From: Clostridia bacterium
Lineage (GTDB): Bacteria > Bacillota > Clostridia > DSM-8532 > SZUA-474
NCBI GenBank assembly: GCA_003251775.1
Contig: QKEK01000191.1
Span: forward strand, 1 to 42,675
Direction: 5' to 3'
DNA: 42,675 nucleotides
Shown: positions 5,284 through 37,711 of the stretch, in pieces
Layout of the letters: every line of letters begins with the position of its first letter
Numbering within the stretch: the stretch's first letter is position 1
Notes under the pieces: generated by a model
Seen by the model: the letters and a program-made list of their open reading frames with translations, nothing else
Told to the model about the DNA's origin: nothing
Database searches by the model: none
Program-made: the position numbers and the translations under genes

Positions 5284-5418
5284 TTGCTCACTCCTTTCAA
5301 ATAGTATTATATGTGTAATTAAAATGTTGTATGCAGTTACTCAAGTAAGTAAATTCTGTTAATGTGATAATTAATAATCTCTTTTTATACTTACTATATC
5401 TGTTTTACACATATTAAC

Positions 5419-5723
5419 TCCACCATGCATGGGGCACAAATAACCACTGCAAGCGGTATCCAAGCCATTTTGTCTTGGCGATTAAAAAAGCTTTTCTAAA
5501 TTCTTTATCAAATAGGAAGCTTTTTTAACGCTTACATACCTAAATTAATAGCAATTAAATAGCTTATAAAGACAACAGTGCTACTAACCGCTATAAGCAA
5601 TTGTATAGTATTATATGATTTTTTGAGATATATGGTGAAAGGAGATGTAATAATTTAAAAATTGCCAGGACGAAATGTCTTGGAAAGCGTTTACTAAGAC
5701 TATTTGTGCCATGGCATGGTGGA
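5419..5723. mobile_element. MITE-like element, 305 bp, ~65-bp imperfect terminal inverted repeats
   Basis: 5419-5483 TCCACCATGCATGGGGCACAAATA...CCAAGCCATTTTGTCTTGGCGATT is inverted at 5660-5723 AATTGCCAGGACGAAATGTCTTGG...TATTTGTGCCATGGCATGGTGGA; no ORF inside. Confidence 0.75.
5475..5538 (+). repeat. Structured hairpin element, copy A (inside the MITE-like element)
   Basis: TTGGCGATTAAAAAAGCTT...TATCAAAT...AAGCTTTTTTAACGCTTACATA. Confidence 0.75.
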
Positions 5724-5784
5724 TATATGATATGATATAAACGGCATTTTTGCAGTTCTTTAAATAATCTTTATATATTCATAA

Positions 5785-8299: not shown

Positions 8300-8389
8300 T
8301 TTGCGTTATTGGCGATTAAAAAAGCTTTTTAAAACACGTTATCAAATCGGAAGAATTTTAAGCGCTTACATATTTAAAACAACGCAAAA
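8300..8389 (+). repeat. Structured hairpin element, copy B
   Basis: TTTGCGTTATTGGCGATTAAAAAAGC...TATCAAAT...CGCTTACATATTTAAAACAACGCAAA. Confidence 0.75.
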
Positions 8390-8540
8390 TAGTGTAAAAT
8401 ATACAACAACGCAATTTATTTTATTTAAGCATGACTCTTATACACTGATATAAGAATTATGCTACAAAGGTACTGTTTGTTTCTGATAATTATATCATAT
8501 TCATATATACCCCACAATAATATCGATAAATAAAAAAATA

Positions 8541-8606
8541 AGAACCCTATGTTGTCATGGCTATCATAGATATCGGACAGTTTAAGAACATTGTTCATTT
8601 ACACAA
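8541..8606 (+). repeat. Degenerate copy of the AAGAACCTTGTTG hairpin repeat family
   Basis: GGCTATCATAGATATCGGACAGTTTAAGAACATTGTT aligns with 40055-40090 and 2398-2443. Confidence 0.5.
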
Positions 8607-13860: not shown

Positions 13861-13905
13861 ATAGTTTTTAATAAATTTATTAAAAATATGCTCTTATATA
13901 TTAAA

Positions 13906-13957
13906 TCCACCATACCTGTGGTACAAAGAACCATTGTAAGCCGTTTCCAAGCCATTT
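13906..13957. repeat. Solo terminal repeat of the MITE-like element, between yvyF and flgM
   Basis: 43/52 identity by eye to 5419-5470, preceded by ATATTAAaTCCACC as at 5412. Confidence 0.75.
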
Positions 13958-14389
13958 CTACTTTTTGTTCATAAATCTCATTCCTGCACCAGGAGCCTTA
14001 TTTTCCTTATTAGCATTATCAAGGGAGTCCTTTATGGATTTACCCGCAGAAGCTAGACCTTTTGCTAGATCACGCTCACAGTCATCACAATATCGACCTG
14101 TTTTAATTGATTTTCCGCACGCCTCACATTTAAGTATTAGATTAGCGTCACCCTCACTTCCTATAATCTCTAGCCTTCCCTCTTTAAGGTATCTCGTTAT
14201 TTTAGCAGTACTCACCCCGAGAACAGAGGATATCTCTGATATTGTTGCACCAGGGTTATTATATATATATTCTTTAATGGTTTTAAACTCTTCCTCTTCA
14301 GAATTTTTGCATTGATTGCACAGCTTAGGTCCAAAAGACGAATAAGTAAACATTTTACCACACTTTTTACAGTTTGTTATTTCTGCCAT
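13958..14389 (-). CDS. yvyF: YvyF-like flagellar operon protein (zinc ribbon + HTH)
   Basis: CKKCGKMFTYSSFGPKLCNQCK; HTH ATISEISSVLGVSTAKITRYLKEGRLEI; synteny. Confidence 0.85.
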   Translation of the reverse strand: MAEITNCKKCGKMFTYSSFGPKLCNQCKNSEEEEFKTIKEYIYNNPGATISEISSVLGVSTAKITRYLKEGRLEIIGSEGDANLILKCEACGKSIKTGRYCDDCERDLAKGLASAGKSIKDSLDNANKENKAPGAGMRFMNKK

Positions 14390-29221: not shown

Positions 29222-29460
29222 AAATCACACGTAGCTTCATACGTGCAGGATTCATTCTACTACATTGTAGGATTATATTCAATAGCCATTATTCGTGATT
29301 ATTTTAATTTAAACATTAATTTCTTAATTTTTCTTTAAATATCTTACATTTACTTCTGTTTTCAAACTACTTGTTTCAATATGTTTTTATCTTCAAATCA
29401 ATATATAACACTTGAGATTAGTATTTGTTTACTAAGTATGTATCATGATTTTGCCCTGTA

Positions 29461-29544
29461 TTTTGCGTTGTTTTGAATAAATAAGCTCAAAATCTGCACT
29501 CACTTATTGAGTAAAATTTTGCATAAATATGTAACAACGCAAAA
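29461..29544. repeat. 84-bp element with TTTTGCGTTGTT / AACAACGCAAAA ends
   Basis: 12-bp perfect terminal inverted repeat; right part repeated at 34878-34906. Confidence 0.7.
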
Positions 29545-34877: not shown

Positions 34878-34906
34878 ATTTGCGTTGTTACATATTTATG
34901 CAAAAT
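34878..34906 (-). repeat. Half copy of the AACAACGCAAA element downstream of pcrA
   Basis: Reverse complement ATTTTGCATAAATATGTAACAACGCAAAT matches 29516-29543 for 28 bp. Confidence 0.75.
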
Positions 34907-37584: not shown

Positions 37585-37672
37585 TTTTTGCGTTGTTTTT
37601 TTAATTAATATGTAAGCGTTTAACGAACTTCAAATTTGATAGAAATTCTAATGAAGTTCGTTAAATCGCCAA
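37585..37672 (-). repeat. Structured hairpin element, copy C
   Basis: Minus strand TTGGCGATTTAACGAACTTCA...TATCAAAT...TGAAGTTCGTTAAACGCTTACATATTAATTAAAAAAACAACGCAAAAA. Confidence 0.8.
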
Positions 37673-37675
37673 GAC

Positions 37676-37696
37676 GACGCTATCTCTGATAGCGTC
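37676..37696 (-). other. Hairpin immediately 5' of copy C
   Basis: GACGCTATC-aga-GATAGCGTC on the minus strand. Confidence 0.7.
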
Positions 37697-37711
37697 GACA
37701 AATGAGGGTTC

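Follow-up and report, generated by a model that had tools for sequence, protein, structure and literature searches.

The window, the whole 42,675-nucleotide stretch of Clostridia bacterium DNA that was analysed, contains three hairpin copies (A, B and C) of a dispersed element, and the stems, loops and flanks quoted for them in a preliminary description are all present in the sequence where they had been placed. Copy A is a complete element of 125 bp, TTAACTCC...CGCTTACATA, at 5414..5538 of the plus strand (covariance-model match of 136 bits, E 1.4e-31), with the minus strand as its gene-sense strand. It follows a left flanking target tetranucleotide, CATA (5410..5413, plus strand), and begins with a putative built-in Shine-Dalgarno and spacer, GGTGGAGTTAA (5414..5424, minus strand). 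Further along the plus strand are the 5' arm of stem P1, TGCAAGCG (5448..5455; its partner is at 5529-5536, with one C-A mismatch), the P2 hairpin CCAAGCC...GTCTTGG (5460..5478), the left arm of P3, TTAAAAAAGCTT (type 2; 5482..5493), the P3 loop motif TATCAAAT (5506..5513), the P3 right arm AAGCTTTTTTAA (5517..5528) and the right end CGCTTACATA (5529..5538), which comprises the P1 3' arm and a terminal CATA. Read on the minus strand, this right end is TATGTAAGCG, a start-stop (ATG TAA). At the opposite end, the flanking CATA supplies on the minus strand an ATG (5412-5410) that directly follows the ribosome-binding site of copy A and opens a frame of 13 codons only. Copies B (8309..8372, plus strand) and C (37609..37672, minus strand) are truncated at the 5' side and retain the right half only. 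The stem of B is imperfect, as had been remarked, and the P3 of C is of type 1 (TTTAACGAACTTC/GAAGTTCGTTAAA, stem 37652-37665/37619-37632, minus strand). Two degenerate left halves complete the set, one at 5644..5729 (minus strand, opposite in orientation to copy A; 37.7 bits) and one at approximately 13900..13962 (plus strand; 34 bits over 13900-14004). Elsewhere in the window, a c-di-AMP riboswitch (RF00379; 15302-15462) lies upstream of a LysM/cell-wall hydrolase gene.

The hairpin as first delimited is real, but when the flanks of exact-motif copies were read it proved to be the 3' (right) half of a larger dispersed DNA repeat, the 125-bp unit that is complete in copy A and truncated in B and C. 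The 5' part, TTAACTCCNCCATGCATTTGGCACAAATAACNNCTGTAAGCGGTTTCCAAGACATTTCGTCTTGGCGATT, is conserved equally with the hairpin, and a 22-base piece of it alone finds 109 matches in the genome at up to 3 mismatches (control, 0). The loop-plus-flank core TATCAAAT-N-CGCTTACATA occurs in 34 exact copies in the genome and in none in the reversed control, so the hairpin copies are not due to chance. A covariance-model search, which the preliminary description had recommended for finding further copies, bears out the dispersed nature of the element with 132 copies or fragments in the 3.42-Mb draft genome (326 contigs). The same model finds no match in 40 relatives or in a further 32 genomes from the order. 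A GTDB collection of 85,462 species, which may omit the source genome itself, lacks the exact core; across 388 genomes of the class, the element occurs in the source genome only, plus one isolated match with 1 mismatch elsewhere. Plasmid and phage records contain no match to the element, and spread by viruses was rejected, the sole IMG/VR match lying within an unrelated long open reading frame without the rest of the element. A comparison to Rfam, also proposed at the outset, returned nothing above gathering score. The sample is one draft metagenome-type assembly, partly comprising two haplotypes (strain mixing), in which gene starts are deduced from open frames plus protein families; its nearest relatives by formate-tetrahydrofolate ligase are uncultured Clostridia MAGs, at no more than 78%.

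The sequence AACAACGCAAAA, reported downstream of B and C, is indeed shared by them, but it is part of a distinct second dispersed repeat, AAGCTTTTTGCGTTGTTACATATTTATGCAAAATTATACTC...AACAACGCAAAATAGCGTATAAATATACAACAACGC. This repeat has about 120 core matches in the genome (including loci L145-L174) and occurs in the window at 8378-8447, 29456-29540 (minus strand), 34882-34901 and 37585-37604 (minus strand). The left part of this second repeat resembles the main element's right end in closing with GTTACATA, and the repeat serves the main element as an insertion target. A perfect hairpin, GACGCTATCAGAGATAGCGTC, at 37673-37700 (minus strand) directly abuts truncated copy C, and similar sequence at 8560-8574 and in locus L100 suggests a possible third family of repeats. 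At another locus, L065, two inverted left halves of the main element make a long palindrome.

The boundaries of the element are exact. Non-tandem flanks (76 left, 65 right) give a sharp YATA|TTAA logo, with nothing past 4 nt on either side, and TTAA itself is the right flank in 21 of 65. The element's own ends are TTAA on the left and CATA on the right, and head-to-tail units, joined by the exact junction CATA|TTAACTCC, are common. No terminal inverted repeats are found, the ends being asymmetric (TTAACTCC vs TATGTAAG). A filled and empty pair of sites is available within the second repeat, where locus L152 carries an uninterrupted GTTACATA|TTTATGC and locus L023 has an element at the same place; this pair fits the absence of a target-site duplication, and loci L033 and L030 resemble it. 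The left and right YATA of individual copies agree slightly above permutation (p 0.004), a weak correlation from which a short target duplication is possible. At the level of sequence, copy number, insertion site, tandem arrays and position at real gene starts are established.

The element folds as a three-way junction, in which P1 (TGTAAGCG/CGCTTACA) is the closing stem, P2 is formed by CAAGAC/GTCTTG, and P3 is the stem recognised initially. In an alignment of 50 copies, seven P3 pairs show two-sided changes, and the structure as a whole has 107 double-change cells vs 42 in shuffles. The covariation score is 0.239 vs 0.119 for shuffled data, a value not reached in any of 500 shuffles, and slid partners score much lower; P1 and P2 covary little. 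P3 comes in four discrete palindromes, represented by 20, 15, 8 and 7 of the 50 copies, with rarer double changes within one type at loci L037 and L063. On a poorly resolved left-module tree built from 71 columns, at least 19 switches of P3 type are needed, compared with 25.5 for shuffled labels. One locus, present as two 94%-identical haplotypes (contigs C6 and C245), differs between them in the P3 type of one and the same element. Loci L010/L002 vs L073 (on these contigs) and L014 vs L072 are such haplotypes of the same loci within one assembly, their elements sharing a site but not a P3 stem, a difference seen in full and partial tandem units alike, which suggests stem conversion between copies. 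P3 stems are thus swapped as blocks between copies, and because the four types are exchanged in this way, independent compensatory events are few. The covariation is nevertheless real and the constraint to stay palindromic plain, so that the original argument for selection on the hairpin is upheld. The strand on which the structure acts is a different matter: wobble pairs in P2 and P3 favour the strand read initially and those in P1 the opposite, while folding energies favour the gene-sense strand, and since these signals conflict we draw no conclusion from them.

For the adjacent genes, the relevant strand is opposite to that of the preliminary description, which also overlooked the left half, the site of insertion and, on the other strand, the ribosome-binding site. 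Where both neighbours run in the same direction, 17 cases have this opposite strand as the sense strand vs 5 for the other. Read in the gene sense, the element opens with TATGTAAGCG and closes with GGNGGAGTTAAT, a Shine-Dalgarno, often followed by ATG. Among the 79 intact copies without another unit following, 20 abut an ATG with an open frame of 60 codons or more, and the remaining 59 are away from gene starts. By comparison, gene starts account for 2 of 84 available TTAATATR-like noncoding window sites at up to 1 mismatch and for 11 of 536 at up to 2, making them approximately tenfold over-represented among the copies (Fisher p 1e-5). The excess could reflect selection after insertion, insertion preference, or both; we infer that insertion, beyond retention, favours gene starts. 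Several of the starts are supported by protein families that begin near the ATG, namely Spore_III_AA, AA_kinase (in a protein with an ArgB-like N-terminus), S4_2, NTP_transferase and Glycos_transf_2, and further by Response_reg, UPF0004 (behind a truncated element), TetR_N and HTH_AraC. The proteins encoded downstream come from many unrelated families and have no common function.

Two further features distinguish the start copies. Sequence before the far end of the element contains a native Shine-Dalgarno (at least 4 bases of AAAGGAGGTGA) in 16 of 20 start copies vs 10 of 49 others (p 6e-6), and the displaced sites at start copies have lower duplex energy to the anti-Shine-Dalgarno (p 4e-5). 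For instance, locus L013 reads AAAGGAGGTTAG|TATGTAAGCG...GGGGGGTTAAT|ATGAGTAAGCC, with the far-end junction AAAGGAGGTTAGTATG|TAAGCG; L070, L075, L019 and L024 are additional examples. The old Shine-Dalgarno in such cases now precedes TATG-TAA, a start-stop. In addition, the variable base of the element's own Shine-Dalgarno is a purine in 20 of 21 start copies vs 37 of 77 elsewhere (p 4e-5), as would be expected if that Shine-Dalgarno is used. Both the displacement of native sites and the purine bias at starts are established by the genome sequence. The element's Shine-Dalgarno is predicted to be about as accessible as native ones (0.56 vs 0.46 unpaired). It probably serves in translation of the downstream gene.

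We therefore regard the element, with a probability of roughly 0.8, as a mobile repeat, non-autonomous and some 125 bp long, that is tolerated at start codons through its own translation start. Its point of insertion is where YATA meets TTAA. Read on the opposite strand, the YATA target is TATR, often a T plus a start codon (TATG), and the element's left end reads GGNGGAGTTAA on the gene-sense strand. After insertion the order would be the old Shine-Dalgarno, TATG-TAAGCG (at the element's right end, a start with a stop immediately after it), the element, GGNGGAGTTAA and finally TATG with the original reading frame. The host gene would retain its coding sequence and start codon, its ribosome-binding site being swapped for that of the element. 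A stronger version, which we consider less likely than not, has start codons targeted as such: the ribosome-binding-site/ATG context would be recognised, the native start displaced into AUG-UAA and initiation taken over, so that through the element's spread dozens of unrelated genes would come to have the same leader.

How the element moves is a separate question. The earlier suggestion of a hairpin recognised by a transposase is plausible and is our preferred mechanism of spread: an IS200/IS605-like HUH transposase might move the element as single-stranded DNA by acting on its subterminal hairpins, with CATA both as its left flank and as its last tetranucleotide, although we put this at somewhat below even odds. 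No cognate transposase and no autonomous copy of the element were found; the genome does contain Y1 genes, none of which is flanked by element ends in the fetched stretches. The most serious rival, although an improbable one, dispenses with a dedicated transposase: insertion would be driven by the short homology that the element's junction CATATTAACTCC has with ribosome-binding-site/start-codon regions, through microhomology or gene conversion. A right flank that prefers TTAA, alongside YATA on the left, would follow, and the exchange of P3 types among copies points the same way. So do loci L019, L021 and L025, in which the element end matches the displaced site before the far end over 13-18 nt; in these three, later conversion or homology-driven insertion may have contributed. 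Most copies, however, share only about 8 nt with their target, and dozens of sites have an exact boundary.

Less probable still is movement of a REP-like element by the RAYT (TnpAREP) gene of this genome rather than by an IS200/IS605 transposase. Proteins of this kind are believed to move REPs, themselves dispersed hairpins (PMC8266576, PMC6006769), and one RAYT-type Y1 gene is present in the genome. It encodes a 259-aa Y1 (HUH) protein resembling RAYT/TnpAREP (L102:1474-2253, contig C302) and has no element nearby. Canonical REPs lie mostly within 1 kb of RAYT-type genes (PMC6006769), but no copy of our element is within about 1.5 kb of this one; moreover, the GT[AG]G tag is absent from the foot of the hairpin and the element is several times the length of a REP.

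We give little credence to a cis-regulatory RNA, that is, a riboswitch-like leader of a regulon whose three-way junction would respond to a signal by controlling access to the ribosome-binding site. The conserved junction, the covarying P3, and the position in 5' leaders with a Shine-Dalgarno at the 3' end all resemble such a leader. The genes downstream are functionally unrelated, however, about three quarters of intact copies are away from starts, copies occur in tandem, truncated, or within another repeat, and near-identical copies occupy unrelated loci; the Shine-Dalgarno is unsequestered in the predicted fold, and the element is without an Rfam match and absent from relatives. The more general suggestion of a small structured RNA is not supported on similar grounds, namely no Rfam match, no shared gene function, and copies inside another repeat and before unrelated genes. 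Most disfavoured is a classical MITE, mobilised by a DDE transposase and duplicating its target, with which the size, copy number, AT-rich target and weak YATA correlation agree but the lack of terminal inverted repeats (TTAACTCC vs TATGTAAG) and of a clear duplication does not.

A gene is usually harmed when a mobile element enters it. The non-autonomous repeat favoured here apparently brings the two halves of a translation start with it, one end having a Shine-Dalgarno and the other TATG followed by a stop, so that insertion at a start codon would leave the gene translatable. A parasite would thereby have a simple means of settling safely at a gene's most sensitive point, and a single genome offers some 20 natural leader swaps. 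Two questions become testable as a result: what enzyme mobilises structured repeats that lack a transposase in Clostridia, and whether leader insertion rewires the translation of many genes together.

Dispersed structured repeats are already known, including BOX, RUP, SPRITE, REP and ERIC (PMC3049150). Pneumococcal BOX, as well as RUP and SPRITE, resemble the element in being short, intergenic, modular and present in more than 100 copies, structured if transcribed, lineage-specific and without a transposase of their own, and some contribute start codons (PMC3049150). As compared by description, BOX and RUP differ in having terminal inverted repeats and target duplications, BOX also in its boxA-B-C modules, and for BOX/RUP insertion at start codons with replacement of the ribosome-binding site is not described (PMC3049150). 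REP/REPIN sequences and their RAYTs (PMC8266576, PMC6006769) likewise involve dispersed intergenic hairpins, with a RAYT-like gene in the genome, but our element has no GTAG tag, is 125 bp rather than 20-65 bp and is not beside the RAYT gene. The Rickettsia palindromic elements are mobile palindromic repeats whose insertion is also compatible with host-gene function; these, however, are translated in frame inside genes (summarised in PMC10969869), whereas the present element stays in the leader and apparently supplies a start signal. The TAACTGA repeats of Beggiatoaceae similarly lie immediately upstream of the start codons of many unrelated genes, but they are 7-bp direct repeats (PMC4679880) without Shine-Dalgarno character and not a 125-bp inserted element. 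In the open-access literature, we found no report of an element that inserts at start codons and takes over the ribosome-binding site, nor of one that simply supplies such a site. Membership in IS200/IS605 is not claimed, given that target specificity extends also to 4 nt on the right, where the model expects it on the left only, that no convincing guide tetranucleotide could be recognised by eye, and that no transposase is linked. Nevertheless, the element shares with non-autonomous IS200/IS605 derivatives the absence of inverted repeats, the presence of subterminal hairpins (here P2 and P3) and natural tandem junctions (PMC6006769, PMC8266576). It also has a fixed tetranucleotide 5' of the left end (YATA) and a right-terminal tetranucleotide (CATA), the former resembling the latter as in that family.
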